Counted from the stretch's first letter, positions 12,153-33,716 are shown. The stretch is 33,819 nt of DNA from Candidatus Woesebacteria bacterium GW2011_GWB1_33_38 (GCA_000990005.1 LBPF01000011.1:1-33819); one strand, 5' to 3'. Made by a program: numbers and translations. Notes: generated from the letters alone by a model not told the origin.

Positions 12153-12660
12153 AAAAGGAGGTGGAGGGTGTTTTGATAGCTGTAGTGTTGATACGGAAGG
12201 GTATGAAGCTTGTCAGAATAATACGATTTATACCTGTGTCAAAAAATATGGCAAATACTTTTTTGATATAACAGAAAAATGTCGATCTGGATATAAATGT
12301 TTTGTTGAGGGTAATGGTAAACAATGTACTTTTGGTTGTATGTTGGATAACTCTAATGATTGTCAAATTGAAGGTGATTTTCAATGTGCATCAATGAAGA
12401 TGGATACCAAAAGGTACAGATGCACTGATGGCGTTTTGCAATTTTGGGAAGATTGTGCAAAGACACGTTATAATGGTTGGTGTAATCCTAACAGTGGAAA
12501 ATGTATGGCTCGTGCAACTGATAAACCTACTATTAAACCAACACCAAAACCATCATCAACCACAACCCCAAAACCAGTTATTTTACCATGTGCCTTTACT
12601 TGTGTTCCTTCAAAAATTGAATGTTTAGAAAACGATGGTGTTGTAAAATCTAAAATGTAG
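12121..12660 (+). CDS. Cys-rich, Thr/Pro-linker secreted or lipoprotein-like protein B (5' end frame-disrupted)
   Basis: Paralog of gene A with a Cys-rich core and the same C-terminal KPVILPCAFTCVPSKIECLENDGVVKS. TTG start at 12121 is assumed by the ORF caller. Confidence 0.65.
   Translation: MPKQVFDEPEAKGGGGCFDSCSVDTEGYEACQNNTIYTCVKKYGKYFFDITEKCRSGYKCFVEGNGKQCTFGCMLDNSNDCQIEGDFQCASMKMDTKRYRCTDGVLQFWEDCAKTRYNGWCNPNSGKCMARATDKPTIKPTPKPSSTTTPKPVILPCAFTCVPSKIECLENDGVVKSKM
12555..12653 (+). repeat. Direct repeat R2, copy 2
   Basis: 99-bp exact match to 10720-10818. Confidence 0.95.
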
Positions 12661-16939: not shown

Positions 16940-17317
16940 TTACATTACGGGTTCGGAACCCGCAAGACTGATTTGGTTGAATAAGTAGTGAATTAGGATT
17001 GCGAGTGTTAGGCCGAGCCACCAGAGATTTCTTTTATGGCGAAGCTGAATCTCATTAAAATATTGCATTACAAGAAGGGTTGTTATGTGCATGGGAGTTA
17101 CTACAAGAAAGCGAAAAAAAGAGGGATTGGGATTAAGAAAATAGAAAACAGCTTCAGAGAAAGAGAATAGAAAACCTAAAATAATAACAACTCTAGTAGA
17201 GCTTGTTGATTTGGCAAGAAATAATTTATATAATTCCTCAATAAAATAAGGGTAGGGCAGGAATTTTTCTACCAATAAAAGAAAGAAAGGGCCAATTAGA
17301 GAGAATAGATAAACCAT
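16940..17317 (-). CDS. Small PrsW-like / intramembrane protease-like membrane protein
   Basis: TM segments with IEELYKLF (EExxK-like), FSEAVFYF, MHITTLLV and ILIHYLFN, resembling PrsW motifs. Confidence 0.5.
   Translation of the reverse strand: MVYLFSLIGPFFLLLVEKFLPYPYFIEELYKLFLAKSTSSTRVVIILGFLFSFSEAVFYFLNPNPSFFRFLVVTPMHITTLLVMQYFNEIQLRHKRNLWWLGLTLAILIHYLFNQISLAGSEPVM
16945..16965 (+). repeat. REP-like hairpin upstream of RAYT, forming the 3' end of the PrsW-like gene
   Basis: TTACGGGTT-CGG-AACCCGCAA with one mismatch. Confidence 0.75.
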
Positions 17318-17320
17318 TTA

Positions 17321-17473
17321 TTAGTTTTCTGATTTGTTGCTAACTGATTTTTTAAATTCTTTGATAGAATCTCCAATTCCTTTTCCAAGTTCTGGCAGTT
17401 TTTTGCCTCCAAAAAGAATTAATAAAACTACGGCAATAATTATAATTTCAGTTGTTCCGATATTTTGTAACAA
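17321..17473 (-). CDS. tatA: Twin-arginine translocase subunit TatA/E
   Basis: Translation LLQNIGTTEIIIIAVVLLILFGGKKLPELGKGIGDSIKEFKKSVSNKSEN with TTG start (not in ORF track). Confidence 0.87.
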   Translation of the reverse strand: MLQNIGTTEIIIIAVVLLILFGGKKLPELGKGIGDSIKEFKKSVSNKSEN

Positions 17474-18205
17474 TTAAATCACTCCCTTTCTTAGAACCCT
17501 ATTTAAAAATAGGGTTATTTCAAACAAAAGTATAAGAGGAAGGGTTAAAAGAATCAAGGATAAAATATCTGTCGGAGGCATAATTGCAGCAAAACATATT
17601 GCAACAATGTATGCAATTGGCCGTTGTTTAATAAAAGTAGTAAGTGAGACAATTTTGAATCTCATCAATAAACTCATGGCAATAGGGTATTGAAATGCAA
17701 TACCCATTAAACTTGAGGTAATTAAGATTTTGCTTAAAAGATCAGAGATATCTAACATGTTTCCAATATTTAATTCAAGAGATTTGCTGTAGAAAATTGA
17801 AACAACATAGCGCATCATAAAAAAGCCAAATGTAAAACCGCCAATAAATAAAAATATGGAAAGAGGTAGAAAGGCAATGACAGATCTATACTCTTTTACC
17901 TTTAACGCGGGTCTTAAAAATATCAATAATTGATATATTAAGATAGGTATTGTAGCGATAGTACCTATTAATAATGATGAACTAATTGCCAGGTTTAAAA
18001 ATTGAAATGGGGAAGTAAAAACTATATTAACTTCACCTAAATCAATTAAATTTATTATAAAAACAATTATTTTCTCATAATAAAAAAATCCAGTAACACC
18101 AAAAAGCAGAAAGATAGAAAAAACAAAAAGAAGCCGCTTTCTAACCTCTGACAAAAGAGGAGAGTAACGATTTATATTTTCTTGAATTGTAGGTGTATTA
18201 TTCAC
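17474..18205 (-). CDS. tatC: Sec-independent protein translocase TatC
   Basis: Six-TM pattern with FTSPFQFLNLAIS, FLRPALKVKEYR and AIMPPTDILSLILLTLPLILLFE. Confidence 0.93.
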   Translation of the reverse strand: MNNTPTIQENINRYSPLLSEVRKRLLFVFSIFLLFGVTGFFYYEKIIVFIINLIDLGEVNIVFTSPFQFLNLAISSSLLIGTIATIPILIYQLLIFLRPALKVKEYRSVIAFLPLSIFLFIGGFTFGFFMMRYVVSIFYSKSLELNIGNMLDISDLLSKILITSSLMGIAFQYPIAMSLLMRFKIVSLTTFIKQRPIAYIVAICFAAIMPPTDILSLILLTLPLILLFEITLFLNRVLRKGVI

Positions 18206-18225: not shown

Positions 18226-18360
18226 CTATTTCAAGCTTTGTTTGAATTCTTTAACTGATAAACCGATTGATTTTATAAATTCAGGTAACTTTTTGCTACC
18301 AAAAAATACAATTACTAACAATGAAAGAATTAAAATTTCAGTTGTTCCTAGATTAGGCAT
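18226..18360 (-). CDS. tatA: Twin-arginine translocase subunit TatA/E
   Basis: Translation MPNLGTTEILILSLLVIVFFGSKKLPEFIKSIGLSVKEFKQSLK (not in ORF track). Confidence 0.88.
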   Translation of the reverse strand: MPNLGTTEILILSLLVIVFFGSKKLPEFIKSIGLSVKEFKQSLK

Positions 18361-18550
18361 CTAAACTGACACCCCCCTTCGTTTTTATTTTCTCGACTTC
18401 TTTTTGGGCTCCGCTAAATTCCTTTTTTATTTTCTTTAGTTCTTTTCCAGCTTCACCTGCACTTCTTGCCATTTCAGTCATTTTTTTACTACCGAAGACA
18501 ATTATTAAAACGAGTGCAACTAATATTATTTCTGGTAGACCTATATTCAT
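18353..18550 (-). CDS. tatA: Twin-arginine translocase TatA/TatB-like subunit
   Basis: MNIGLPEIILVALVLIIVFGSKKMTEMARSAGEAGKELKKIKKEF; overlaps the next tatA by 8 nt. Confidence 0.88.
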   Translation of the reverse strand: MNIGLPEIILVALVLIIVFGSKKMTEMARSAGEAGKELKKIKKEFSGAQKEVEKIKTKGGVSLDA

Positions 18551-18568: not shown

Positions 18569-19867
18569 CTATTTCAAGGAAGCAAGTGTCGCTTTAAGTT
18601 TAGTAGCTTTAAGAACTTGACCAACAGACCCCGGAGTAGTGTGACCTGTTATTATTTCATCCCATACAGCATCAGCAATGTCGGATGCTGAAGCACCACC
18701 CGCTGGCGTTTCGATGAATGTTCCAGTACCCAAGTCTCTTGTTGCTCCTAAAGTGTTACCTGAGAATGTGTGGTTAAGTCTGACACCTGTTCTAACTACA
18801 CCTGTTCCGACATCAACTCCATAACCAGTATTGTTAAAAATTAAATTATTTTCAAAAATATTGTCGGCTATACTGGCTCCAGCTAGATCTGCCCCGTCTG
18901 TACCATTTCCAGACAAAATACATTGTTTGATTACGGTTTTGGAGGTGCTGGCGCCTATTTTGACTCCACTGAGTACTGAATTTTCCACTGCGGAATTTTC
19001 AATTTGTGTACGAGTACTACTTGATATATCAATTCCATTTCCCGTAACACTTTTAACCCAAACATTTTTAATCAAGGCATTATCACCACTAACTGTTATG
19101 CCATTATCAGTTCCACCACTTGCAGTACCAATATAGAATCCTTCAAATTCGACAGAATCTCCAGAAATGTTGATAGTAGAGGAACCAGCCGTACTTGGGA
19201 TGATTTGGAATTGATAACCAGCACCTCTTATTTTTAGTGAAGATTTTGTAATATTTAATACTTCTGTCGTTGTTGTAATTCCATCCGAATCTGTCGCGAG
19301 TGCAAAGATAATGTCTCCAGCACCAGCTGTTGACAAAGTTTGAGCTTTATTAAATGTTGCAACCGCGTTTGAAGGGGTTAAGCCGTCATTTGAGTCGTTT
19401 CCACTAGTTGGATTCCAATACCAAATTGCACCAACTGATCGATTCCTACCGCGCATGCTTTCCAACATATAAAGCATGCCGTAATTAGCGTCAGCCTGAA
19501 TAATGGTCGGGGAGGATGATTGAGCAATATTAACTTGAGTAAAGGCTGTAGCCTTTAGTGGATTATTAGCATATTGGTTAATAGCAACTAAATTTCCCCC
19601 TGAAATAGTGCACCCAATCGTATCAGGACCCAGCCTTGCTTCGAATGCAATTCTCCAGTCGTTTATAAGTTCTAGGGTAATTCCGATATAACTGCCTGCA
19701 CCTAAAGCTTGTTTTCCATAAGCGTTTGCAATATGACCATAATCTAAGTTATTTAAATTTTCTTCATAGAGCCTGATTTGATTTAGTAAATCCTGAATTG
19801 TAACTGATGTCTGGGGACCATCAACTTGAATTACTCTCTCATATTTAAAAAAGGTCAGTGTCGCCAT
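18569..19867 (-). CDS. Phage tail-fibre/tailspike-like protein with right-handed parallel beta-helix
   Basis: Pectate-lyase-like repeats (NGITVSGDNALIKNVWVKSVTGNGIDISSSTRTQIENSAVENS...) and C-terminal SDIADAVWDEIITGHTTPGSVGQ motif typical of phage fibres. No signal peptide. Confidence 0.75.
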   Translation of the reverse strand: MATLTFFKYERVIQVDGPQTSVTIQDLLNQIRLYEENLNNLDYGHIANAYGKQALGAGSYIGITLELINDWRIAFEARLGPDTIGCTISGGNLVAINQYANNPLKATAFTQVNIAQSSSPTIIQADANYGMLYMLESMRGRNRSVGAIWYWNPTSGNDSNDGLTPSNAVATFNKAQTLSTAGAGDIIFALATDSDGITTTTEVLNITKSSLKIRGAGYQFQIIPSTAGSSTINISGDSVEFEGFYIGTASGGTDNGITVSGDNALIKNVWVKSVTGNGIDISSSTRTQIENSAVENSVLSGVKIGASTSKTVIKQCILSGNGTDGADLAGASIADNIFENNLIFNNTGYGVDVGTGVVRTGVRLNHTFSGNTLGATRDLGTGTFIETPAGGASASDIADAVWDEIITGHTTPGSVGQVLKATKLKATLASLK

Positions 19868-19869
19868 AC

Positions 19870-20703
19870 TTAATTAAAAACAGATACGTTTATAAATTTG
19901 GTTAATTTATCTCCAATCATTTTGTATGTATAATCTTGGCCAATTTTTATTGCTAAATATTTTTTAGGAATTTCATTTGTTGTGTCAGTTTGAGTAAAAC
20001 TTTGATTTTCTTCATTGAATATAAAGTTAATAACTTGAAGTTTTGTATTAATCGGTAGTTTTTTAATATTAAAACCGCTCAAATTTGTAATTTTGGCATC
20101 TCCATTTAGATATTGAGGGAAGTTTAAACTAATTAGACCTCTATCAAAAAGAGCAATAAACTGGGGGATATTTTCGGCTACTTTTATAGAAAACTCATTA
20201 ACTATTAGATCTTGACCATTAGTTGTTAAAAGATATTCTAATAAATGACGATTAACTAAAACAACTTCCATTTTTTTGTTTAGACAAAAGAAAATTAGCG
20301 TGTCTCGATACTGAAAAAGGGGAGTAAGTTGATATAGATTTAGTACATTCTTAATAGTGGGATCTATTTTGATAGTGGTTAAGTCCAAGATATTCGCACT
20401 ATTTGGAAGATAACAGTTTATCTGCGGGTTATAAATTCGAAAGCCACAACCTACTGCAACATTATTGATTAAATTTATAGTTACATTGTCATCTTTTGAA
20501 ATTGTTACAGTAACTTGCCCTGTTTTTTCTAGTTTTAAGTGGGCTACAGTAGGTGTTTCTAAATAGTAAATAAACGCTTTTTCCTTAGTCTCTTTTTTGA
20601 CCTCAATATCTCCTACAAAAGTTAATAAATAATCAATAATCTTTTGAAAATTACTTTTGAGGTCTTTGATTTTGTGGATATTTCTTAAATAGTAATGAAT
20701 CAT
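19870..20703 (-). CDS. Hypothetical protein of the fibre-like gene cluster
   Basis: 277-aa ORF, co-oriented with a 2-nt gap to the 432-aa protein gene. No recognised domain. Confidence 0.6.
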   Translation of the reverse strand: MIHYYLRNIHKIKDLKSNFQKIIDYLLTFVGDIEVKKETKEKAFIYYLETPTVAHLKLEKTGQVTVTISKDDNVTINLINNVAVGCGFRIYNPQINCYLPNSANILDLTTIKIDPTIKNVLNLYQLTPLFQYRDTLIFFCLNKKMEVVLVNRHLLEYLLTTNGQDLIVNEFSIKVAENIPQFIALFDRGLISLNFPQYLNGDAKITNLSGFNIKKLPINTKLQVINFIFNEENQSFTQTDTTNEIPKKYLAIKIGQDYTYKMIGDKLTKFINVSVFN

Positions 20704-20704
20704 A

Positions 20705-20959
20705 TTACAAAACTTCGTCTATTTCCTTGATGTCTTTTTTAAGTGAAGCAATCATTCCGTCAACTCTTTTCATTTCAGTTTTTTCTTTTTCAATTGCTTC
20801 CTCAAAAACTAAAATGTTTTTCTTTATTTTTTCTTTATATTTAATAAGGTCGTTTACGCCAAATTCCCTAATAACTTTTGTACTTTTAAGTCTTTTTTTG
20901 TCAATTTTTAATTTCATACTTTTAGTTTCATTTGTATTTACTATAATATTGTTCTTCAA
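20705..20959 (-). CDS. Small coiled-coil hypothetical protein (start may be internal, MKLKIDKKRLKS)
   Basis: 84-aa ORF rich in Lys/Glu heptads, directly upstream of the 277-aa gene. Confidence 0.55.
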   Translation of the reverse strand: MKNNIIVNTNETKSMKLKIDKKRLKSTKVIREFGVNDLIKYKEKIKKNILVFEEAIEKEKTEMKRVDGMIASLKKDIKEIDEVL

Positions 20960-21221
20960 TTTTTTGAGACAAAAGTATTTTCATCAGAGATTGGTAGGGG
21001 ACATCTTGCATATTTGCCATCATTTTAAGGTCATCAAGCATCATTTGAGGTAGCCGTAAAGTTACTTTAGCGGTTGATGGTTTAAGATTTGATAAATCAA
21101 GTTTAACTGGGTTGTCGAAGTCAAAATAATCTGTGGCATCATGAGTATCCCAAAATTTTATTTCTTCATCTTCATTCTTAAAACTTGGTATTGGTTTAAA
21201 TGTTTTTTTTGTTTTTTTCAT
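20928..21221 (-). CDS. brnA: BrnA-like antitoxin (CopG/RHH type)
   Basis: FWDTHDATDYFD...VTLRLPQMMLDDLKMMANMQDVPYQSLMKILLSQKI; overlaps the upstream BrnT gene. Confidence 0.85.
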   Translation of the reverse strand: MKKTKKTFKPIPSFKNEDEEIKFWDTHDATDYFDFDNPVKLDLSNLKPSTAKVTLRLPQMMLDDLKMMANMQDVPYQSLMKILLSQKIEEQYYSKYK

Positions 21222-21480
21222 ATTTAATCTTTTCCTTTTTACTCATATCTCTTGCTGAAATTACTCTTACTTTATTATCTCTAATTGTAAAAAGAATTGA
21301 TAAAAATCTTCTCTTGCTAGTTTTACCTAGAGCAGAGTACCTTACTTCAACCAAGGAATGCTTAGGATCCTTTGCAATAACAGGCTTATCAAGTAAAATT
21401 TTCTCACATTCTTTGATAGTAACCCCATGTTTCAACCAATTTTTATTTTTATTACCTTCATCCCAATCAAATTCTTCCAT
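21196..21480 (-). CDS. brnT: BrnT family toxin
   Basis: FDWDEGNKNKNWLKHGVTIKECEKIL...RFLSILFTIRDNKVRVISARDMSKKEKIKYE. Confidence 0.9.
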   Translation of the reverse strand: MEEFDWDEGNKNKNWLKHGVTIKECEKILLDKPVIAKDPKHSLVEVRYSALGKTSKRRFLSILFTIRDNKVRVISARDMSKKEKIKYEKNKKNI

Positions 21481-21494
21481 ATTATTAATAATAT

Positions 21495-21508
21495 CATATT
21501 ATAATATG
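21495..21508. promoter_or_regulatory. Perfect 14-bp palindrome upstream of brnT (candidate BrnA operator)
   Basis: CATATTATAATATG, between the predicted promoter and the brnT start. Confidence 0.5.
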
Positions 21509-21540
21509 TACATCTTTATACCATACAATTTGAGGTTTTG

Positions 21541-21933
21541 TCAAGAAGTTAATTTGTCCCAGAAGGTTTTCTTTTCTTTTTCTTCAGGGTCTAGTTGGCT
21601 TTTACTTATAAATTTACCATCAGGACCTCTTGTAACTCTTTTTGAAGTTGGTTCAACTACTTCGTTAACAACTGTTGGTACAATTGGTTCTTCAATAACT
21701 TCAACATCTTTGGTTAAGATTACTTCTGCCTTACCCTTTTTAGCTTCTTTTTCAAGTCTTTTTTGTTCTGCTAGTTCGTCTAGATATTGCTGCTCTTTGA
21801 TATAATTATCAATTGCTTTTTTAAGTTCTTTTTCAGTGTTTTGACGAAAAACAACAACTCCTGCGGAATTTCTAGCAATATGCATCACTAGATCTCCGTT
21901 TAATGATAGTGATAATTCATATTTTTTATACAT
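21541..21933 (-). CDS. Hypothetical 130-aa protein downstream of the 813-aa fibre-like gene
   Basis: Co-oriented, 23-nt gap to the 813-aa gene; contains RGPDGKFISK. Confidence 0.6.
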   Translation of the reverse strand: MYKKYELSLSLNGDLVMHIARNSAGVVVFRQNTEKELKKAIDNYIKEQQYLDELAEQKRLEKEAKKGKAEVILTKDVEVIEEPIVPTVVNEVVEPTSKRVTRGPDGKFISKSQLDPEEKEKKTFWDKLTS

Positions 21934-21956
21934 TTGTTTTTTTAATTTCTTTTACT

Positions 21957-24398
21957 TTAGACAAATATTGTATCAGTTGTACGAACAACAGACACGTTTG
22001 TAGGATTTGCACCAACCACTGAACTGTCCTGCTCAAATGGTAAAATATTTCCTGCTTGTCTTGCACGAACTCTAATAAAGATATCACCATCAGTTACTGA
22101 ATGTGTAATTGTCACAGCCTCTGAACCTGGAGTACCAGTTGAGCCTGTTGTTTCGTAAGAATCAATAAATGGTACGTACCAAGTATCTTGTGGGGAAGTT
22201 GTTGTCGCAACAGGTAATGCATTAAATTTAATATTATCTGCAGTTGTTTGACCTGTAATTGCAGGTGAAATTGTTACATTGTTAGCATCAACTATTACAG
22301 ATACATACGAAACAGCATTTGTCTGTGTAACATTTAAGACTAAATCTCCAACTAAACTTGCAGTTCCGATTCCTGTACTAGTTATGTTTGTAGTTGTGGT
22401 ACCTGCTGAAGCTGAAGCTACATTTGTATATGCTAAATTAAATGTTCCATTTGGAGTGTTAGTCCAAGTAGAAAATCTTAATCTGTATTCTCTGGTTGCT
22501 GACGTATCGACAAGCCTAATAACACCACCAACTGTTTTTCCTGGTGAGTCTGTCGTAATTGGTACACCTAAAACTACGGTTGTTGCAGCTTGCGATTGTA
22601 CAGTCGCATTATATTCCGCTTTATTAATATCACCACCACTTGCGGTTAATCTAAAGACTGCCACTTTGTCACCAAGTCTAGTGTTACTTACAGTAATAGT
22701 TGCCTTAGTTGGGGCGAGTCTTACAGTTCCATTATCATCAACCAATTGGAAATTATTGGCATCGGCCGTTAAGTAATCAGAAAGAACAACACCTGGGGCA
22801 CAGAAGAACTTTCCCCCAGCGAATGTTCCAAATGGTGCAGCAGCAATAGGTGTAACTGCAGATGCTTCTGAATTTGGAGTAAATGTTCCTGAAGCAGTGT
22901 CGTCCGTTACTATGTTTGTTGTGTCAAAAGTTCCTCTAGAATTTCGGAGTATGACTATTTTGTCTGTAGTATTAACCTCAACAATTGTTCCTTTGGCGCC
23001 TGAAGTAGTTTGAGTACAAGTATTTCCTTCAGAAAATGTCCCTGTAATGGAACCAGAATATCTTAATCTGTAATCTGATCCTATGTAAAATTGTCCTTGC
23101 AGGCCATCTGTGTTAGTTGTTGCTGTTTCTCCGCGTCTTGTTATGTACTTTGAATATTGATAAACGTTAGCAAGAGAATTTTGATTACAATCAACTGTGA
23201 CGGAATAATTTTCAGGTGTTCCGTTTTCATCAATATCGTTAGTACCTCCATCTGATAGACCTCCATGAGTAATTACAGGTGAGGTTCCGAGTGCAGATGG
23301 ACCAGCTGCGGCCGGAGTACCAGCCGTAACTGTTGCGCTAGATGTTTCCCCTGTTACTGAAGTGTCTGCGTTTGCAAAATTTGTAATCGGATCTCCAATT
23401 AAATAGTAAACGATTGTAGGAGTTGTTCCAGGGGAGCCTGTAACTGATGTAATGACACCTTTCTTGAATGTTCCAGATTTACTTATAACTTCTCCAACTA
23501 CAAAAGTTCCAGTTCCCGAACTACCCGTAAACGTCCAATATCCTGTCTGATTATCCAAATCGTTACCAGTTTGAAGAGGGATAGGATTACGTCCTCCGTT
23601 TGTTAAGTCAACTGTATAATATGAATAAGTTTTAGAATATTGGCGGGCAAAGACTCCAATATAACCTTCATCAGTTTCAACGCCCAACTCTTTTACATTA
23701 ACTAAAATGTCAATGTGTCCATCGCCCCACCAATCAGTTGTATCTTTGTAAGCTGTTAAATTAGCTCCATTTTGACTAATATATAAATGCGTATTAGATT
23801 CAATTGTACCAAGAGTATAAATATTGGCCCAAAGAGATTCGCCTGCAGATGCTGTTGAAGTCCAGGTTGCAGTATGAGCGTTACAAGTTAAAGTTCCTGC
23901 ATCATCAAAGTCGTTAGTTGCAGTATTATCATCAGGCCTAACCCAAAGAATAGAACCTGCACCAGTTCCTTTGACGTCAAGTAATGTGCCTGTATTACCA
24001 CCAATTGTGATATCAAAGCCAATATCTCCGGCAACTATTGAAGTATTATTACAAACGATTTTTAATATACCAGTGTTAGTTCCTGTAACTCTGTCCCAGC
24101 TAGCAGTTTTTAACGCACCTCCTGATAAATATTCAACAGAAGTTCTATCAATAAACCATGGATCTTTATCTCCAGCGTCAATTATTCCGATTGTGTACTC
24201 AGTAGGGGTCTGTGCAGACATTGGAACACCATCATCCATCTGTGTTAACTCGTCAAATTGATTCTGAAGTGCAGAATAAAGAGCATTAACAGTATCTGTT
24301 ACTGTCGGAGTAATGGAAGTATCTCTTGTAATTCTTTTTTGTCGGTTTTCTGCGCCATAATATACAACCCAACGTCCGCTTAATATTGTATCTGCCAT
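21957..24398 (-). CDS. Large phage-structural/fibre-like protein (813 aa)
   Basis: Repeated phage-structural style motifs (GTGTFVVGEVISKSGTFKKGVITSV; GTFSEGNTCTQTTSGAKGTIVEV). No signal peptide. Confidence 0.65.
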   Translation of the reverse strand: MADTILSGRWVVYYGAENRQKRITRDTSITPTVTDTVNALYSALQNQFDELTQMDDGVPMSAQTPTEYTIGIIDAGDKDPWFIDRTSVEYLSGGALKTASWDRVTGTNTGILKIVCNNTSIVAGDIGFDITIGGNTGTLLDVKGTGAGSILWVRPDDNTATNDFDDAGTLTCNAHTATWTSTASAGESLWANIYTLGTIESNTHLYISQNGANLTAYKDTTDWWGDGHIDILVNVKELGVETDEGYIGVFARQYSKTYSYYTVDLTNGGRNPIPLQTGNDLDNQTGYWTFTGSSGTGTFVVGEVISKSGTFKKGVITSVTGSPGTTPTIVYYLIGDPITNFANADTSVTGETSSATVTAGTPAAAGPSALGTSPVITHGGLSDGGTNDIDENGTPENYSVTVDCNQNSLANVYQYSKYITRRGETATTNTDGLQGQFYIGSDYRLRYSGSITGTFSEGNTCTQTTSGAKGTIVEVNTTDKIVILRNSRGTFDTTNIVTDDTASGTFTPNSEASAVTPIAAAPFGTFAGGKFFCAPGVVLSDYLTADANNFQLVDDNGTVRLAPTKATITVSNTRLGDKVAVFRLTASGGDINKAEYNATVQSQAATTVVLGVPITTDSPGKTVGGVIRLVDTSATREYRLRFSTWTNTPNGTFNLAYTNVASASAGTTTTNITSTGIGTASLVGDLVLNVTQTNAVSYVSVIVDANNVTISPAITGQTTADNIKFNALPVATTTSPQDTWYVPFIDSYETTGSTGTPGSEAVTITHSVTDGDIFIRVRARQAGNILPFEQDSSVVGANPTNVSVVRTTDTIFV

Positions 24399-24534
24399 AT
24401 TCTTAAATTATATATACTAAAACTAATCTAGTAACCAGTTTGCGCTATCAATAATGTGCTTGTCAACTAACATTATCTGTATCAAATGAGTCGGAATTGA
24501 TACATTTAATCGCTAAAAGTAATAGTCAATTTAT

Positions 24535-25491
24535 TTACCTTCTTTTACCTGCTAGATAGCTGTTAACTGATTCAATTGTTGACAACCAATTTCTTCCTTC
24601 CTTGTGGGCAATTAACTTTCCCTTTCTAACTAGTAGATTAAAGTATTTAGGAGAAAAATTAAAATGTTTACTTAATTCAGAAAGTGTCAAAAATCTTTCC
24701 GAATCGGATTTTATACCGATAATGGTTTCTAAATATATATTTAAGGATCTTTCAACTGATTGAGTGACAAACTCTATAAATGGTAAATAGTTTCCATTAT
24801 CTGCTTTTGAAAGTGTCTCGTAATATTTTTTGCGATCATTCTTTAAAATGACAACTAGTGGAAATCCCTCTCTTAATAATATTATATCCATTACAATCCT
24901 TGCTGTTCTGCCGTTTCCGTCTTCAAAAGGATGAATAGATACAATTTTATGATGTATTAAACTTGCAAGTTCAATTGGATGTAATTTCATTTGGTTTTGT
25001 CTAAACCAAGAAATTAACTCCTGCATTTTGTGGGGTATTTCAATAGCTAGTGGTGGTTTATGTCCAGACCCTGCAATTGCAACATCACCACCTCTGTATT
25101 TTCCTGCAATATTTTTGTCAATTGGTGATATAACCAAACTTTGTATTTGGCGAATTAATGTCTCTGAAATTGTTGGCTTGGAATCAAACTGAACTAAATC
25201 ATAAATAAATTCAAGAGCATCATGATGGCTCTTGGCTTCTAAATGATTTTTAAACGATTTTCCTTTAACTGTAATTCCTTCATTTATTATTAAATAAGTT
25301 TCTTTGTATGTTAGGCTGTTACCTTCGATAGCATTACTGTTGTATGTCATTTCAAGCATGAATCTTTCTCGTAACTTATTAACTACTGTTTTTGAAAGTG
25401 GTCTTTTAAGTTGTAATCTATGCCATTTTTCATCAATTCTTGTTATTGTTTGAAGTGACAAATAGGCAGGTTTTGTATGGTATAACTTCAT
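24535..25491 (-). CDS. Fic family protein, canonical active site
   Basis: MTYNSNAIEGNSLT (inhibitory-helix-like motif), VSIHPFEDGNGRTARI (HPFxDGNGRxxR), C-terminal HTH-like region. Confidence 0.93.
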   Translation of the reverse strand: MKLYHTKPAYLSLQTITRIDEKWHRLQLKRPLSKTVVNKLRERFMLEMTYNSNAIEGNSLTYKETYLIINEGITVKGKSFKNHLEAKSHHDALEFIYDLVQFDSKPTISETLIRQIQSLVISPIDKNIAGKYRGGDVAIAGSGHKPPLAIEIPHKMQELISWFRQNQMKLHPIELASLIHHKIVSIHPFEDGNGRTARIVMDIILLREGFPLVVILKNDRKKYYETLSKADNGNYLPFIEFVTQSVERSLNIYLETIIGIKSDSERFLTLSELSKHFNFSPKYFNLLVRKGKLIAHKEGRNWLSTIESVNSYLAGKRR

Positions 25492-25498
25492 AATTAAT

Positions 25499-25526
25499 AC
25501 TATACCATATCTAAAGAAGGTGTCAA
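25499..25526 (-). promoter_or_regulatory. Predicted leaderless promoter of the canonical Fic gene
   Basis: Minus strand TTGACA (25521-25526), 16-nt spacer, TATAGT (25499-25504), 7 nt to the ATG at 25491. Confidence 0.65.
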
Positions 25527-25532
25527 GAATTG

Positions 25533-26012
25533 TTAAGGATTAAGAACGGAAGAAGAATCGTTTGACTGACTAGTAGGTAAGTGTGTTACATTTTTTCTTT
25601 GTGGAATGAGGAAGTCTGCAATACCTGCAAATATATAAAAAATAATTGGAATTATTAGTATTGCCCCTCCGTATGAAATAGCTAAAGTCCAGAGAAGGGG
25701 AGTTATTTTTGCACCAGTTGCAAGTTGTTGGAAGGCATAAATTTCTGCAATAAAGCTTAAAAAGAAGGCAATTCCGAGCTTTTTAAAATATTGACGTTCC
25801 ATAATAGATAAAATTAAAGTAACCGATAACATAATAGCAACTGAACGGACAATTACGGCAACATAAGTCATTGGGTAAAGTTTGAAAAAACTTTCATTTA
25901 AAAATATAAGAGGGTTCGTAATTTGTAATTTAAGCGCCCCTGCAAAATAATCTAGAATATAGGCAAGAAGAAATAAACAGGTTGTTATTACAAGTGTTAC
26001 TTCCTTTTTCAT
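25533..26012 (-). CDS. Hypothetical multi-pass membrane protein
   Basis: 159 aa with several hydrophobic segments. Confidence 0.6.
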   Translation of the reverse strand: MKKEVTLVITTCLFLLAYILDYFAGALKLQITNPLIFLNESFFKLYPMTYVAVIVRSVAIMLSVTLILSIMERQYFKKLGIAFFLSFIAEIYAFQQLATGAKITPLLWTLAISYGGAILIIPIIFYIFAGIADFLIPQRKNVTHLPTSQSNDSSSVLNP

Positions 26013-26172
26013 AATTACGATATTAGATTATAATAGTATTATAATCAAGTAATCTTTATGTATAACCATTTACTTTATTTTTCTTATTGGGTGGTGAATT
26101 CATTTGCTATTTCACTCTTTAATTATTTATTTCCTAATAACTTTGTACTAGGAAATTGGAAATTATTTGGCC

Positions 26173-26201
26173 TTGACAAGATTCACTAATTAGTATATTA
26201 T
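26173..26201 (+). promoter_or_regulatory. Promoter of AbiE module 4, predicted leaderless
   Basis: TTGACA (26173-26178), 17-nt spacer, TATTAT (26196-26201); ATG at 26212. Confidence 0.6.
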
Positions 26202-26211
26202 TGTCCTAATT

Positions 26212-26796
26212 ATGGAATCGTTATCAATCAGCCAAATAATTAAAAAATTGTCTTTAAAAAATATACCTCTGTTTACTATAAACGAACTAGGGGGAATTTT
26301 GGGTACTGATAATCGTCAAACATTATATAAAAGGATTCAAAGACTTACCAAAAGTGATCTTTTGCAAAAACTTATAAAAGGAAGGTATCTGTTTACATTA
26401 AAAGATACAAATGACTTTACGAAATCAAATTTTTTATATCAGCCGTCATATATTTCAATGCAGTCTGCTTTGTCGTTTCATAATATTATGACTGGGTTTT
26501 CATATCAAATTACTGGAATTACTATTAAAAAATCAAAAAAATTTGTAATAAATGATAAAGATTTTAGTTATTCCCAAATAGATCCTAAATTATTTTGGGG
26601 CTTTGAGAAAAAAGAGGACTTTTTGATTGCAACGCCTGAAAAAGCACTACTTGACTATTTATATTTTTCTACAAAAGGAATTAATAACTTGGATTGGAAT
26701 GAAATAGATACAACAAACCTAGACAAGAAACTACTAATAGAGTGGTCAAGAAAGTATAATAAAATTGTTGTAAGGGAGCTTAAAAAGCATATATGA
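26212..26796 (+). CDS. AbiEi-like antitoxin/regulator
   Basis: FLYQPSYISMQSALSFHNIM...GITIKKSKKF...IATPEKALLDYLYF; paralog of 2695-3285. Confidence 0.82.
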   Translation: MESLSISQIIKKLSLKNIPLFTINELGGILGTDNRQTLYKRIQRLTKSDLLQKLIKGRYLFTLKDTNDFTKSNFLYQPSYISMQSALSFHNIMTGFSYQITGITIKKSKKFVINDKDFSYSQIDPKLFWGFEKKEDFLIATPEKALLDYLYFSTKGINNLDWNEIDTTNLDKKLLIEWSRKYNKIVVRELKKHI

Positions 26797-27509
26797 TTAC
26801 TAACGGTCAAATTAAAAATTTAGCAAAAGTTTTTCAAATCGATGAGTATAGTGTATTCAGGGAGTATCTACAGCTAGTATTTTTAAGCTATCTATATCAG
26901 GAAAGAAAAGCCAATAAACTTCTTTTTAAAGGGGGAACGGCCTTAAGGCTGTTTTTTGGGTCACCAAGATTTTCTGAGGATTTAGATTTTTCTACAAATT
27001 ACAATGATTCTGAAATTATTGAGTTGCTTAACAATGTTGTGGTAAAAATAAAAAAAGAACTACCTAATTTTAGAATTATATCGCTACATAAGGGTACAGA
27101 GGGAATACGTTTTAGAATTCTTTTTAATCAAAAAGAATTTAAGTACCCGTTTAGTATCAGACTTGATTTTCACCAAGAAAAAGAAGTAACAGGCGCAGCG
27201 GTTTCAACTTTGTTAACACAGTTTCCACTGATGATTTTTCCTCAAGTCTATCATTTGTCTGGTGAATCAATTTTATTTGAGAAATTTGATGCATTAAAAA
27301 ATAGAAATAAAGGTCGAGATATATTTGATATATGGTTTTTGTTATCAAGGGGTATAAGGATTACTGATGTCAAAAAAAGTGATATTAAAAATATAGATGA
27401 ATTCTCTCAAAAATTACTTGAAAAAGATCTTGGTCAGTTCTTGCCTCATGGCCAAAAACAAATAATAGCTGTTTTAAAACAAGAAATTATAAAATTGTTA
27501 CAAAAATAA
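26793..27509 (+). CDS. AbiEii-family nucleotidyltransferase
   Basis: LLFKGGTALRLFFGSPRFSEDLDFSTN and NKGRDIFDIWFLL; ATGA overlap with AbiEi. Confidence 0.88.
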   Translation: MITNGQIKNLAKVFQIDEYSVFREYLQLVFLSYLYQERKANKLLFKGGTALRLFFGSPRFSEDLDFSTNYNDSEIIELLNNVVVKIKKELPNFRIISLHKGTEGIRFRILFNQKEFKYPFSIRLDFHQEKEVTGAAVSTLLTQFPLMIFPQVYHLSGESILFEKFDALKNRNKGRDIFDIWFLLSRGIRITDVKKSDIKNIDEFSQKLLEKDLGQFLPHGQKQIIAVLKQEIIKLLQK

Positions 27510-27563
27510 TCTTGTAACAAACTGGCACTTGATTTTAGTATTACTCGTAATAAACTGGTATAT

Positions 27564-28865
27564 ATGTTTAAAAGAAAGCTAGAAAGTCAACTTATTGAAT
27601 GGAAAAATAGTGATGTCCATAAACCCTTGATTGTTCGTGGTGCTAGGCAAGTGGGTAAGACTAGCCTTATTCGAAATTTTGGTACTAAAAATTTCAGTAA
27701 TGTAGTAGAGATCAATTTGGAAAAAGAAACACATAAACAAATGTTTAATAGTGTAATGAGTGTTGAAGATTTGGAAAAGAGAATAAATTTAGGACTAAAT
27801 CAAACAATTTCTGCAGGCAAGACATTAATTTTTATTGATGAAATTCAAGAGTCGCAACGAATGTTGGAGTTACTGCGGTTTATGGCTGAAGAGAGGCAGT
27901 CTTGGCATGTATTAGTCGCCGGGTCACTATTGGAAGTAAAATTGGGAAAGGATTGGAAAATTCCTGTTGGAAGAGTTGGATATAAATATTTATATCCATT
28001 AACCTTTTTTGAATATTTGGAGGCAATGGGCAAAACAAATTTACTAAATGAGTTAAATAATGTTAGTTTTGGGAAGACTGTTGGAGGATCATTATTTCTA
28101 GAAGATGAATTCAGACAATATATTTTGTTGGGTGGAATGCCTGAAGTTATTGCAAATTTTTCAAAGTACAAAGATTATGGCAAAGTCAGAGAAATTTTGG
28201 CAAGGATACAAACAACATATGGCGAAGACGTTGGTAAATATCTAAAAAGTGATGAAGAACGTAAATATTTGGAAGCAGTGATTGAAGACGGTCCACGAAT
28301 TGCTGGTAGTATTTTTAACTATCAGAATTTTGCTGGATCAACATATAAGAGCCGTGAAATGTCTGATGCTGTAAGGAAAATTGAGAGGACGATGTTATGT
28401 ACCCAGTTGCCTGCAATTAATTCTACAGTTTTACCAATTGTTTATAAATACAAAAGGCCAAAAAAAATGATTTGGTTAGATGTCGGAATTGTAAATTTAG
28501 TAAATAATGCATATCCAGAATTAATTAAAGGATTGTATGGCGGACGATTAATGGAACAAATAATTGGGCAAACGCTAATTGCGACGATGTTTGATGGTTT
28601 ATCAAAGCTTTCCTATTATGCAAAAGATAAAGATAAAGGTAGTGCAGAGGTGGATTTTTGTTTTCCGTGGAGAGGGCGTCTAGTTGGAATAGAAGTTAAG
28701 TCAGGTAATACATTTAAGAGTCGATCTTTAACTAAAATGAGAGAAGAAGCAAAAGAAAATCTAATTCCTGTAATGATGACTTGGAATAAGTTTGGAATAA
28801 AGAATGGGGTATACAATATTCCATTTTACTTAGCAGAAAGATGGGAAGAGTTTTTGACAGTTTGA
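27564..28865 (+). CDS. AAA ATPase with DUF4143 domain
   Basis: LIVRGARQVGKTSLIRNFG, LIFIDEIQESQ, PVGRVGYKYLYPLTFFEYLEAMG, SAEVDFCFPWRGRLVGIEVKSG. Confidence 0.9.
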   Translation: MFKRKLESQLIEWKNSDVHKPLIVRGARQVGKTSLIRNFGTKNFSNVVEINLEKETHKQMFNSVMSVEDLEKRINLGLNQTISAGKTLIFIDEIQESQRMLELLRFMAEERQSWHVLVAGSLLEVKLGKDWKIPVGRVGYKYLYPLTFFEYLEAMGKTNLLNELNNVSFGKTVGGSLFLEDEFRQYILLGGMPEVIANFSKYKDYGKVREILARIQTTYGEDVGKYLKSDEERKYLEAVIEDGPRIAGSIFNYQNFAGSTYKSREMSDAVRKIERTMLCTQLPAINSTVLPIVYKYKRPKKMIWLDVGIVNLVNNAYPELIKGLYGGRLMEQIIGQTLIATMFDGLSKLSYYAKDKDKGSAEVDFCFPWRGRLVGIEVKSGNTFKSRSLTKMREEAKENLIPVMMTWNKFGIKNGVYNIPFYLAERWEEFLTV

Positions 28866-28920
28866 TACTTGACAAAGTGTTTCTGAAATGGTATGTTTCA
28901 TATACCAAAAGGGAAACAAA

Positions 28921-29547
28921 ATGAATCGAATAGCAAAATTAACGCTTTTTAAAAATACGCCTGCATTTAACAAGCGTACCTTGCAACGTATCCTAGATAT
29001 TAAAGATGAAGCCTTAAATGCCAATGTTAAAAGATGGTTAAAAAAGGGTGAATTAATTCAACTTAAACGAGGTTGGTATGTAACAAAAGACTATTATCAA
29101 TTGAGTTCAAATAAACAAAATTATTTTGAATGGTTAGCTAACAAATTCAAGGAACCGTCGTATTTATCGATGGAGTATGTATTACAAAAATATAATTTAC
29201 TTTCAGAAGCTGTATATTCGATCACTTCAGTAACATTAAAAAAGACAGGTAATTATTTGAACAATTTTGGTCAATTTAGCTACTATAATATTAACGACAA
29301 CCAATTTATTGGCTATAAAATGTTTCAACGAGGGGAATATAATATCAATGAAGCAACCTTAGCAAAGGCCTTATTCGACTATCTGTATTACAAAATTGGG
29401 AAATTGAATAAAATCACTACTGACTTGTGGGATGATTTACGAATTAACACTGAAGTTATTACTGATGGAGATAAGCTCGAATTTATTAAATATTGTGGGA
29501 TGGAAGGATCAAAAAAGATGAAACAAATTGCAAAATTATTAATATGA
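28921..29547 (+). CDS. AbiEi-like antitoxin/regulator (ORF track start 28888; ATG at 28921 preferred)
   Basis: KEPSYLSMEYVLQKYNLLSEAVYSITSVTLKKTG...NEATLAKALFDYLYY. Promoter TTGACA (about 28868) / TATGTT makes the 28888 start unlikely. Confidence 0.75.
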   Translation: MNRIAKLTLFKNTPAFNKRTLQRILDIKDEALNANVKRWLKKGELIQLKRGWYVTKDYYQLSSNKQNYFEWLANKFKEPSYLSMEYVLQKYNLLSEAVYSITSVTLKKTGNYLNNFGQFSYYNINDNQFIGYKMFQRGEYNINEATLAKALFDYLYYKIGKLNKITTDLWDDLRINTEVITDGDKLEFIKYCGMEGSKKMKQIAKLLI

Positions 29548-30377
29548 ATATGATTTTAAATGATTTAATTCGGGTATCAGGAGAGTCTAAAAGACTTGGT
29601 ATGTCTGATGGTTACATTAAAAATTACCTAAGAGAATATTTACAAGTTTTTATTCTCAATTTTATTTATTCAAGCAGTAAATTTGGAGACAATCTAATAT
29701 TCACAGGAGGCACTTGCTTGAAACATGTTTACGATCTACCTAGGCTCTCGGAAGATTTGGATTTTGATGTAATAGGTAAATTGACAACAAAAGAATTAGC
29801 CGATGGATTAACTAAATTTTTTAATATTACACATATGTGGAAAGAGGTGACAGTTTCAGTTAAACAACTTGATAGACAAATTTTACTTAAATTTCCATGT
29901 CTTAGAGCCACGGAACTAGCAGGGATGAATGATAGTGACTTACTGTATGTAAAAATGGATCTTAACCGTGATATTGCAAAAGGATATAATGCGGTTGTAA
30001 CCGTAAAATCTGGATATGGAATGAATTACGCGTTAGTACACTATGATTTACCAAGTTTATTTGCTGGTAAAATCTCTGCTGTACTAACTAGAAGACGATT
30101 ATCCGACTATTTTGATTTATTGTGGTTTTTAGAAAATAAAGTAAAACCCAATATGATTAGGTTGAATAATGTGTTAGGGAAAAAAATAACTATAAATAAA
30201 TTAGTAGAATTATTAGATCAAAAAGTAGATGAATTGATGACTAAATATCCATTAGATTTAAAAAGAGATCTGGGTCCGTTTTTGCAAAACCCGAACTTAA
30301 TTGATAGATATATTACAAATTATAAAGAAAGTTATGATGTTGCAAAACAATATCTCACCCTAAGGTCAAAAAAGTGA
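29544..30377 (+). CDS. AbiEii-family nucleotidyltransferase (start by ATGA overlap at 29544)
   Basis: LIFTGGTCLKHVYDLPRLSEDLDFDVIG, RRRLSDYFDLLWFLE. Confidence 0.85.
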   Translation: MNMILNDLIRVSGESKRLGMSDGYIKNYLREYLQVFILNFIYSSSKFGDNLIFTGGTCLKHVYDLPRLSEDLDFDVIGKLTTKELADGLTKFFNITHMWKEVTVSVKQLDRQILLKFPCLRATELAGMNDSDLLYVKMDLNRDIAKGYNAVVTVKSGYGMNYALVHYDLPSLFAGKISAVLTRRRLSDYFDLLWFLENKVKPNMIRLNNVLGKKITINKLVELLDQKVDELMTKYPLDLKRDLGPFLQNPNLIDRYITNYKESYDVAKQYLTLRSKK

Positions 30378-30380
30378 ATC

Positions 30381-32942
30381 TTAGGCTGTCGTATCTTCAA
30401 TTAGTGTAATCGTTGCTGAAAAACCTGAAGAAGTTATTGTGCCTGTTGTTGATGCTGGATAATATTTTACTTCTCCATCTGATGACTTTCTGACCCTTAT
30501 GTAAATATCAGTATCAGCAGTATAGTTAAACGATCCTGTTGCTATTCCGTTTGTAGCTGTACCTGTTCCAGACCCTGCACCTGTTGCAGTAAAGATGATA
30601 CCAACAGTGTTAGATGTCGCTCCGATTACTGTAAAATCAGTAGTTCCGACTGTTATTATTTTATATTTTACATCAATTACAAATGAACCAGCAGTTACTG
30701 TTTCTGTGTCACTATTCATAAGTTGGGAATTGTCATTTGATTTATAAATTGCAGTTTGGGCTGCGGTTACTGGAGAATTGCTGGAATCCACAACGCTAAT
30801 TTTTAAACTAACAGCATTATTAACGGTCGTTGTTGCGCTTGTGCCATTTCTATAAGTTGGTGTACTTCCCGCATTTGTGATGTTTAATGTTACTGATCCG
30901 CCAGAATCGTTAAAAATTGCTGCTGAATTTGTTCCGTTTGATCCAAAACCTGTAAAAATATTTCCACTAAAATCATATGTACCAGCAGTTGTAATTCTTA
31001 TTGCATGACCGGTCGAGGCAGAGCCTGTAAAAGTATTATTTGAAAAGATTATGGGTGAGGAAACTGAACACCACCTGTTTCCAGAGGTGACACCAGTAAC
31101 ATTTATAGCTGAACTATTTATAACAGTTGATCCATTTGTTGTTAAAGTGTCGTTTCCTGCTGGAACGTTTTTGATATTGGCATTTGTTACAGTACAACCA
31201 CTAAAGTTAAGAGTTGGGCAGGAGGTAAAGTTCATTGAGTCGAATGTCATTACATTTCTTAAGGTTACATTTGCACCAACTATTGATAATCCTGTAAAAT
31301 CCCAAGTGGCAGCACTTATTGCAGCTGAATTTATCTCCCAATAATACGGACTAGGGGATGTAACAACAGAGTTGGTATGTTTAATGGTGTCCCCAGATTT
31401 TCCTGCGTAACTTATTCCAATTGCATTATTCTGGCCGTGATAATTTATTTCTCTGTCTGCAAGGCTATAAATTCGTGGAAATTGTAATGCCCCAGCATCA
31501 ATTTGAAAATTAACTCCATCCCCACCTCCAATTTGAATTGGTATATAAGCCAAAAGTCCGGAGGCGCCAGACTTTGCAATTAGGGGAATACGGCAATATT
31601 TACCTACTTCATATAAACCCTGTGTATTTACAGGTGAAGCCGAAGTTCCTCCCGCGACGGTTATTTTTTTAATAAAATGCCAATCCATATATCTAAATGC
31701 TCCTGTAGCATTTTGTCCTTTATGAAGAATTAGCATTTTATCTATTGCTGTAATTGTGGGAGCTGTTGCGCTGTACCCGTATTGTGTTTGTGTCTGGTTT
31801 GGTTGGACTGATATTATTGAAAAACCTGTTCCATTTCCATCTTGATTGTCACGAGCCATAACACGATAACTACGATAATTTGTGCCCTGTCCAATTACAA
31901 GATAAGTACCTCCTTTTTTAATATTTCCCTGATTGTATAATGCCATTTTGGATGTAGAAGCCATAAAACCACCGACAACCCAACCTGTTGTCATGTCAAT
32001 TGCAGTAGTTGGGAAATTGCGTTGATATCCAATGGCATTTGTTGTGGTTGACACTGGAGTACTGTTAATTGATGAAGAATAGGGATTAAATCCAGTGTCA
32101 ACGACTACAGCAGGTGCATCGTAAGTTGTTGCTTGTCCTGCGCCGTTTGGTCCGATATTTGCATAGGTTAATGCTGTAGGATAATTTTCATTATTTAATG
32201 TGGTTGCCGAAAGATACCACGAACAAGTGGAAAGTTTCTGTCCAAGTGAATCTACATCGTCGATGTACGGTGGAACAACTCCTCCAGAAATATTACGGAA
32301 AGCGATAACAAAACGATGGGTAATTGATGATGCACTTAAGTCCCATGTGGGAGTTGGTGTTGCCCCTGCTGTTCGTTGAATGTACCATGCACAAGCTGAT
32401 CCTGTCATCGTAGTTGCAGTTGTTCCACCAGCATCAGAGGAATCTATAAAATGTGTGGGTCCAGGAACAGTAAGTGCTGAAATGGGTGTTGTTGATGGTG
32501 GTTCAATACCCAAGTAATACAATATCAAACAGTCTGCAGTTGTAGTAGTTACAGATGCAGATGTAAAAGTTGAGGCAGTAGTAAAAACTGCCGATGACGA
32601 AGTTGATAAATCATTTGTGACGTCAATTGCAGTTGTAGTATTTACATCCTTAATGATAAACATAGAGACATTTATGGCGTCTGCTGTACCCATTGTAATT
32701 GTGCATGTTTCAGATGATCCTGCCGCGCGTTTCCACCAAACTCCAGATGATGAGGCAGACGCTGATATTTGAGTAACTCCAATTTGTGCCCATCCTGATG
32801 TACCAACGGAAAGTGTTACACCCCCATCGGCATTTGCTGCTACTACTATAATATCGTTTGCAACATGATCAGGCAGGGTAAGGGCATATGAAGTTGCACC
32901 ACTAGTACTAAATTGTGTTAAAAAATCATCAAGATATGCCAT
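30381..32942 (-). CDS. Large phage-fibre-like / beta-helix protein (853 aa)
   Basis: N-terminal phage-structural style domain (VANDIIVVAANADGGVTLSVGTSGWAQIG...SGVWWKRAAGSSETCTIT), beta-helix-like central repeats. No signal peptide. Confidence 0.65.
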   Translation of the reverse strand: MAYLDDFLTQFSTSGATSYALTLPDHVANDIIVVAANADGGVTLSVGTSGWAQIGVTQISASASSSGVWWKRAAGSSETCTITMGTADAINVSMFIIKDVNTTTAIDVTNDLSTSSSAVFTTASTFTSASVTTTTADCLILYYLGIEPPSTTPISALTVPGPTHFIDSSDAGGTTATTMTGSACAWYIQRTAGATPTPTWDLSASSITHRFVIAFRNISGGVVPPYIDDVDSLGQKLSTCSWYLSATTLNNENYPTALTYANIGPNGAGQATTYDAPAVVVDTGFNPYSSSINSTPVSTTTNAIGYQRNFPTTAIDMTTGWVVGGFMASTSKMALYNQGNIKKGGTYLVIGQGTNYRSYRVMARDNQDGNGTGFSIISVQPNQTQTQYGYSATAPTITAIDKMLILHKGQNATGAFRYMDWHFIKKITVAGGTSASPVNTQGLYEVGKYCRIPLIAKSGASGLLAYIPIQIGGGDGVNFQIDAGALQFPRIYSLADREINYHGQNNAIGISYAGKSGDTIKHTNSVVTSPSPYYWEINSAAISAATWDFTGLSIVGANVTLRNVMTFDSMNFTSCPTLNFSGCTVTNANIKNVPAGNDTLTTNGSTVINSSAINVTGVTSGNRWCSVSSPIIFSNNTFTGSASTGHAIRITTAGTYDFSGNIFTGFGSNGTNSAAIFNDSGGSVTLNITNAGSTPTYRNGTSATTTVNNAVSLKISVVDSSNSPVTAAQTAIYKSNDNSQLMNSDTETVTAGSFVIDVKYKIITVGTTDFTVIGATSNTVGIIFTATGAGSGTGTATNGIATGSFNYTADTDIYIRVRKSSDGEVKYYPASTTGTITSSGFSATITLIEDTTA

Positions 32943-33303
32943 ATTTTACGTTTCTTAAGGCCTTTTTTACTAATCCATCAAGATCGAGATCGCTTTTAAC
33001 TATATATTCAATAGCTCCTTTACTTTTTTCTTCATCTTGGGCTAAATTTGAAGCAACTATGACAGGTATGTTTTTTAATTTTTTGTTGGATTTAACCCTT
33101 TTTAAGAATTCATAGCCATCAATTCCTGGAAGTAAAATATCTAAAATTATTGCGTCAGGTATCCAAATCTTAAGAAGTTCTAGTCCATCTTCTGCATTTA
33201 AAACCGCTTTAACCATAAACTTTTTGGCCTTAAACTGCATAGACATGGCCTTACTAATAAATTTGTCATCTTCGACTATTAGTACTTTTGGAGTTTTGCT
33301 CAT
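32929..33303 (-). CDS. Stand-alone CheY-like response regulator receiver
   Basis: PKVLIVEDDKFISKAMSMQFK...AIILDILLPGIDGYEFLKRVK...IEYIVKSDLDLDGLVKKAL. Confidence 0.9.
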   Translation of the reverse strand: MSKTPKVLIVEDDKFISKAMSMQFKAKKFMVKAVLNAEDGLELLKIWIPDAIILDILLPGIDGYEFLKRVKSNKKLKNIPVIVASNLAQDEEKSKGAIEYIVKSDLDLDGLVKKALRNVKYGIS

Positions 33304-33716
33304 ACCTCTAATGACTTTCTGCCATGATCTGACATTTTGATGTAATAAAGTGTTTTTCTGACTATTTCTTGTAAGTCCATGTTGCTTTTAACAAAAAACT
33401 CTGCTGCAGATAGTTTAATTCCTTTTAAGACATCTTTCTCTTGATTTAAATTTGAAGCAATTAAAACAGGCATCCCTTTTAACTTTTCAGTCTTTTTGAT
33501 TTCTGTTAAAACTTCAAAGCCGTCCTTTTCAGGCATTAATATGTCTAGAATTACAGCAGATGGAACCCACTTATTTAATATATCTAAGGCTTCGTCACCA
33601 TTTTTTGCAATTTTAACCTTGAAATTTGCGCTTTTAAATTGTATAGACATAGCTTTGGCAATTAATTTATCGTCTTCAACTATTAGAACTTTGGGGCATA
33701 TCTTCATATTATTCAT
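33300..33716 (-). CDS. Stand-alone CheY-like response regulator receiver
   Basis: PKVLIVEDDKLIAKAMSIQFK...AVILDILMPEKDGFEVLTEIK...AEFFVKSNMDLQEIVRKTL; 4-nt overlap with the next receiver. Confidence 0.9.
   Translation of the reverse strand: MNNMKICPKVLIVEDDKLIAKAMSIQFKSANFKVKIAKNGDEALDILNKWVPSAVILDILMPEKDGFEVLTEIKKTEKLKGMPVLIASNLNQEKDVLKGIKLSAAEFFVKSNMDLQEIVRKTLYYIKMSDHGRKSLEV

Follow-up and report, generated by a model that had tools for sequence, protein, structure and literature searches.

The locus described in this work is best interpreted, by a modest margin, as a phage capsid-appendage module that has been domesticated on a Tat-linked membrane chassis, where it probably serves surface attachment. 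The window, meaning the whole stretch of DNA that was analysed, is an entire contig (G000:C11, 33,819 bp) from the genome of Candidatus Woesebacteria bacterium GW2011_GWB1_33_38 (845,411 bp in 14 contigs, 97% complete), a tiny and probably host-dependent organism. The locus is real and conserved, and no description of it was found in the literature searched; phage domestication as such is already known. Because the contig ends there, the locus is truncated at the right edge of the window, and the remaining genes lie on contig C12. The palindrome GGGCTTTAGCCC has only two copies in the genome (window 33745 and L013:76), one on contig C11 and one on contig C12, near the ends that face each other. 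From this it is inferred that the two contigs are probably neighbours, and the palindrome is likely the repeat that broke the assembly.

Table 1. Features of the locus on the window and on contig C12, with supporting evidence and recurrence among 26 related loci.
Feature	Position	Strand	Evidence and recurrence
CheY-like receiver 1	33300..33716	-	PF00072, E=4e-21; receivers in 7/26 loci
CheY-like receiver 2	32929..33303	-	PF00072, E=4e-16
F853 (853 aa), fibre/horn-like phage virion protein	30381..32942	-	phage-contig homologs; 13/26 loci
AbiE and AAA_14 genes	26212-30377
TM159, conserved 159-aa membrane protein	25533..26012	-	12/26 loci
Fic protein	24535-25491
F813 (813 aa), phage virion protein related to Syn5 gp53	21957..24398	-	17/26 loci
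Small protein (130 aa, f19 type, C-terminus FWDKL)	21541..21933	-	co-oriented
BrnT toxin	21196..21480	-	PF04365, E=3e-21; not a module member
CopG-type antitoxin of the BrnT pair	20928..21221	-	PF12441, E=8e-29; not a module member
Coiled-coil protein (84 aa, f22)	20705..20959	-	profile match to phage coil protein
D277 (277 aa), cassette protein of unknown fold	19870..20703	-	relatives between F813 and B432 in 10/26 loci
B432 (432 aa): phage-type N-terminal domain, beta-helix, C-terminal VWDE...ATLASLK segment	18569..19867	-
TatA-like 1 (65 aa)	18353..18550	-	sequence; family at 18/26 loci
TatA-like 2 (44 aa, MPNLGTTEILILSLLVIVFFGSKKLPEF...)	18226..18360	-	read from sequence
TatC	17474..18205	-	PF00902, E=8e-41
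TatA-like 3 (50 aa)	17321..17473	-	sequence and family
TM125, conserved membrane protein	16940..17317	-	20/26 loci
M777 (777 aa), membrane-anchored surface protein	13924..16257	+	22/26 loci
P313, Fic/HTH-like, conserved neighbour of M777	12650..13591	-	15/26 loci
f11, membrane protein with Tat signal	C12:5985-6605		10/26 loci
f15, Cache-HisKA type histidine kinase	C12:96-1673

A sequence-only reading of the window had placed proteins of 432, 813 and 853 aa and small co-oriented ORFs of 277, 84 and 130 aa on the minus strand, with two CheY-like receivers on one side and a Tat cluster on the other. All of this held, the Tat cluster consisting of TatC and three TatA-like ORFs. Its claim that the large proteins have beta-helix or phage-structural character held as well, the 432-aa protein being a beta-helix and the other two having full-length relatives on phage contigs, as did its claim that the phage-like proteins carry no signal peptide, there being no N-terminal hydrophobic signal segment. 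Signal peptides missed at alternative starts were looked for and can be excluded, because the upstream in-frame extensions span only 1–7 codons. The BrnT/CopG, Fic, TM159 and AbiE/AAA_14 genes had been left out, as had M777, which lies just beyond the region covered.

Proteins similar to the 130-aa protein occupy the equivalent position in other loci. The BrnT/CopG pair is inserted inside the cassette and is absent from that place in the sister genome G001 (Woesebacteria MAG GW2011_GWB1_33_22). M777 comprises a signal peptide, a large ectodomain with phage-like VWGY.TR.LT segments and a C-terminal transmembrane segment, its hydrophobic segments falling at residues ~15 and ~627. P313 matched PF02661 only at E=1e-3, below the curated cut-off. 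A Y1-type (IS200-like/RAYT-like) transposase lies between TM125 and M777 (window 16292-16930) and at the same site in G001, and is under selection as judged from its dN/dS of 0.048. Genes of toxin-antitoxin type are unusually dense for a reduced 845-kb genome, with one pair within the phage-derived cassette and AbiEii genes at window 613-1284, 3279-4046, 26793-27509 and 29493-30377.

Homology shows F813, F853 and B432 to be proteins of phage virion type. F813, whose family is present in 22 of the 374 genomes sampled from the class, has 12 full-length homologs at about 50–53% identity on IMG/VR phage contigs of 14 to 452 kb, and its initial methionine is invariant across 16 bacterial and phage homologs. 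F853 is 40% identical over its full length to a protein (L042:7544-9925) whose gene follows a phage major capsid gene at a distance of a few kb, and it matches Virus Rctr197k at 38% identity across 26% of its length; its C-terminal domain is common to many phage fibres. Neither protein gave a significant Pfam or PHROG match, and searches of PHROG, Pfam and INPHARED with the window proteins returned almost nothing for F813 and D277. The phage link was established first from IMG/VR and then from cyanophage Syn5 via an alternative cassette. B432 contains a right-handed beta-helix (PF13229, E=8e-10), and its N-terminus matches phage proteins encoded just downstream of the F813 homolog, the homology spanning most of B432 in phage contig L047. 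A phylum-wide search found full-length B432 only within the class.

Structure prediction gave a B432 model of mean pLDDT 66.6, in which the beta-helix reaches ~90 over residues ~230–360 and the C-terminal helix is of low confidence. Foldseek returned phage pectate-lyase-like and tail-fibre/tail-spike proteins as its best BFVD matches. The F813 model is of low confidence (mean pLDDT 65.6) and forms a chain of beta domains, matching phage structural proteins in BFVD at low TM-scores and nothing informative in the PDB.

Most of the IMG/VR contigs share one gene order, consisting of an F853-type protein, an F813-type protein, a coil protein of ~123 aa and a protein carrying the first ~120 aa of B432. 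The 84-aa coil ORF of the window shows a profile match (E=3e-6) to the ~123-aa phage protein located between the F813 and B432 homologs. Since F853, F813, the coil gene and the B432 N-terminus all match in the same order, a phage neighbourhood of four genes survives in the window. The idea that bacterial contigs had been mislabelled as viral in IMG/VR was dismissed, given the capsid genes near the matches. The L037 record carries a terminase. PF03237 detected TerL in only one of ten related phage contigs, and the phage status of the others rests on the capsid genes. On L042 the F813 homolog is preceded, at a distance of about 7 kb, by a gene for a phage major head protein (phrog_2522, E=5e-76), and on L038 the capsid gene near the match is recognised by its HK97-like sequence and a phrog_16565 match.

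In four genomes (G009, G108, G201 and G351) the corresponding site holds a different cassette, F853-f25-f26-f27, of gp53-f26-gp55 type. The f25 protein is a full-length homolog of Syn5 gp53 (32%, E=9e-65) with an identical C-terminal ERNYSNP, and f27 matches Syn5 gp55 (34%, E=2e-13). F813 has a profile match to gp53 (E=5e-5), and B432 matches gp55 at E=0.01, which is weak by itself. In Syn5, the vertex opposite the tail bears a horn, and knob-like capsid proteins are also present (PMC10575957); gp53 and gp54 are reported to be the horn proteins, and gp55 has been tentatively assigned as one knob (PMC9207676). The genes for gp53, gp54 and gp55 are consecutive in the Syn5 genome. Homologs of f25 occur in at least 186 viral contigs, and among 80 that were examined f27 was a neighbour in 57 and F853 in 33; the complete F853-f25-f26-f27 order is also present in phage contigs. 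Because the chromosomal f25 sequences branch from within the phage tree at two or more points, the direction of transfer for this cassette was from phage to bacterium. Both kinds of cassette occupy the equivalent place directly before tatA, and, with a single exception among the bacterial copies examined, both end in a C-terminal VWDE...(K/R)AT(L/I)ASLK segment, which was present in none of the phage homologs examined.

Phage core genes that would accompany these proteins in a prophage were not found. The PF03237 terminase profile had no match in the whole genome and was detected in 6 of 14 control genomes. This profile misses most of the related phage contigs, and a search with phage-locus proteins formed the second leg of the analysis. 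When 303 such proteins were compared with all 845,411 bases, only F853, F813, B432, the fibre on C12 and a few non-virion genes were matched. No major capsid or connector match was obtained in this search, whose queries covered major capsid, connector and terminase proteins, but very divergent capsids are not excluded. Tube, sheath and baseplate were likewise without a Pfam or PHROG match among the locus proteins. Strong purifying selection on the cassette is shown by dN/dS between G000 and G001 (F813 0.031, B432 0.061, D277 0.10), with TatC (0.070) and Rho (0.046) for comparison; synonymous sites are near saturation for this pair (dS ~1.1). In the F813 tree, chromosomal copies from four candidate phyla (Woese-, Davies-, Roizman- and Beckwithbacteria) cluster together (support 94/99), apart from the phages. 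The tree is unrooted and shows the bacterial and phage groups only as two sides.

The same neighbours, tatA-tatC-TM125-M777, are found in about 20 loci, in contrast to the sporadic insertion expected of a prophage, and across Microgenomates the arrangement [853-813-277-432]-tatA-tatC-TM125-M777 is encountered repeatedly. Of the two options left by the sequence-only reading, the tail end of a prophage is not supported, with no terminase genome-wide, no capsid match in the genome to proteins of the nearest phage loci and chromosomal copies that group apart. A domesticated fibre or appendage is supported by the virion-type genes, the purifying selection and the conserved order with Tat, its surface-appendage part remaining inferred. 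The locus was filed neither as a prophage nor as a tailocin, as the defining features of each were tested and not met.

A strong statistical linkage to Tat, which had not been claimed beforehand, is also shown. The window encodes the only TatC found in its genome, and tatC is present in 46 of the 374 class genomes (12%). Full-length B432 occurs in 19 of the 374, and 18 of these have tatC, always on the same strand and with a gap of -3 to 3,888 bp; in the one exception B432 is near the edge of a short contig. The 18 genomes are spread over nine families. The co-occurrence (Fisher p=2e-17, 374 genomes) should be taken only as a guide, since related genomes do not count as independent observations. 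The cassette is missing from about half of the genomes with tatC. Protein distances follow those of TatC closely for M777 (r=0.83) and P313 (r=0.87) and only weakly for B432 (r=0.32), the latter indicating that the cassette moves independently of the chassis. On this reading of the distances, the chassis (Tat, f11, M777, TM125 and P313) is inherited and the phage-derived head is exchangeable. Tat is known in Microgenomatia (PMC9166423). The sections of that paper bearing on Tat do not report linkage to a cassette, and the literature searched contained no report linking Tat to phage structural proteins in Microgenomates or Patescibacteria.

The likely client of this Tat system is f11, in which ERRKFLKLIGAAGGSLFLLATFTKRAEA-SFFGS contains an RR-x-F-L-K motif, a hydrophobic segment and a cleavage-like AxA. 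Upstream transmembrane helices and a cytoplasmic linker precede the RR-x-FLK signal, and the hydrophobic stretch and AxA are followed by a conserved FFGSVPGPGT domain. As the only protein with both RR and AxA in its genome, f11 is its only convincing Tat substrate, export being inferred from the signal. It was found in 52 of the 374 class genomes, 38 of them with tatC (p=2e-32) and 14 without a detected tatC. The motif is RR in all 22 cassette genomes and mostly KR where the cassette is absent. No f11 homologs were found in viral contigs, so on present evidence f11 is not a phage gene. Its neighbours on C12 are a second fibre, the Cache-HisKA kinase and a dCache protein, in the same order as in G012.

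The KR-FLK proteins make up a second f11 subfamily (L131-L138, L143, L146-L163) of genomes without the cassette, some of them also without a detected tatC. In G004, long SPSPSVSPS-repeat proteins with a fibre-like C-terminus lie beside a KR-type f11 and tatC (L147:9460-13774). In G008, genes for a TPR/OGT-like glycosyltransferase (PF13844), a second member of that family and an FkbM methyltransferase are situated between F853 and F813 (L027:13107-18555), an arrangement that could possibly reflect glycosylation of the fibre proteins.

In the proposed explanation, virion-appendage genes, homologous to the Syn5 gp53/gp54/gp55 region and to huge phages, would have been captured by Microgenomates and placed on a chassis of TatA/TatC, f11, M777 and small transmembrane proteins, with the Cache-type histidine kinase and CheY receivers as putative regulators. 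F853, F813 and B432 would be folded and assembled while still in the cytoplasm, much as virion parts are, before docking onto a chassis of f11 and M777; that the conserved segment at the C-terminus of B432 mediates this docking is a guess. Tat carries folded proteins. Surface exposure would occur by or together with the Tat machinery, and the exposed product may be an appendage through which the cell adheres to or senses other cells. Docking, the route across the membrane, surface location and adhesive function are all inferred, without expression or localisation data. Membrane passage is the weakest step. As F853, F813, B432 and D277 have no N-terminal Tat or Sec signal, their crossing is unexplained, and hitchhiking with f11 or release by lysis are both possible. 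The existence of tatC without the cassette and of f11 without a detected tatC also counts against this reading.

The rival that survives best, and remains possible, holds that cassette and Tat chassis occupy one locus but are not directly coupled in a mechanical sense. Only f11 would then be served by Tat, with the fibre proteins either acting in the cytoplasm or reaching the surface by lysis or some other route not yet identified. It is favoured by the many tatC genomes without the cassette, by the weak correlation of B432 with TatC distances and by the lack of an RR motif in the fibre proteins. However, full-length B432 is almost never away from tatC (18/19), RR-type f11 accompanies the cassette and KR-type mostly its absence, and two different cassettes with one C-terminal segment occupy the same place before tatA. 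A second rival, considered unlikely, is an intracellular anti-phage device in which appendage or decoration proteins act as decoys that spoil huge-phage assembly, the surrounding toxin-antitoxin genes forming a defence island and the Tat linkage reflecting another use of the site. The absence of an export signal on the phage-like proteins, the nearby BrnT, AbiE and Fic genes and the location of the phage homologs among head genes are in its favour, but the conserved order with tatA/tatC, f11 and M777 and the linked Cache sensors point to the envelope, and the toxin-antitoxin genes vary from genome to genome. An ordinary prophage or remnant with its other genes outside the window is very unlikely: the genes do belong to the phage virion class and have mobile and toxin-antitoxin genes among them, but the rest of the genome yielded no terminase and nothing homologous to the capsids of the nearest phages, the order of genes beside tatC-M777 is kept in many genera, dN/dS is as low as that of Rho and the chromosomal copies form one group.

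The domesticated, Tat-linked module thus remains the preferred reading. A bolder version, which the evidence falls a little short of carrying, jointly proposes a new class of surface organelle on the membrane chassis, in which a phage capsid-vertex (horn/knob) appendage is exported or displayed by a dedicated Tat machinery and serves the ultrasmall Microgenomates in host contact. Its heads would fold in the cytoplasm and be exchangeable, having been acquired from different phages on two or more occasions. Little is known of the means by which Microgenomates recognise other cells and hold on to them, and the locus supplies concrete candidates. It ties a rare exporter, Tat, both to a single inferred substrate and to proteins derived from phages, adds capsid appendages to the tails and capsids already known from phage domestication, and provides huge-phage genes of unknown role with a non-phage partner system. 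Proof of surface display through Tat would make this a new kind of organelle.

Like tailocins, eCIS, T6SS, GTAs and encapsulins, the locus represents bacterial reuse of virion structural genes under selection. Unlike them, it has no tube, sheath, baseplate, portal or capsid that could be found, and its parts are of capsid-appendage or fibre types linked to Tat rather than to lysis or contraction. The closest phage counterpart is the Syn5 horn/knob region, with F813 and f25 corresponding to gp53 and f27 to gp55, the B432 N-terminus resembling gp55 less strongly, and the genes being grouped locally in the same way. In Syn5 these genes lie within a phage that has capsid, terminase and tail, whereas the locus adjoins a bacterial Tat operon and has no capsid gene, so that assembly on a capsid vertex would not be expected. 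Polytopic membrane substrates with Tat signals exist, for example actinobacterial Rieske-type proteins. With its upstream transmembrane helices, internal RR-FLK signal and C-terminal domain, inferred to be exported, f11 resembles these, but no cofactor-binding motif was seen in it and it is tied to phage-derived cassettes. Among Patescibacteria, type IV pili mediate host attachment of Saccharibacteria (PMC12206443). The locus contains no pilin or pilus motor genes and encodes another kind of protein, and what it would share with these pili is the proposed role in contact with host cells.
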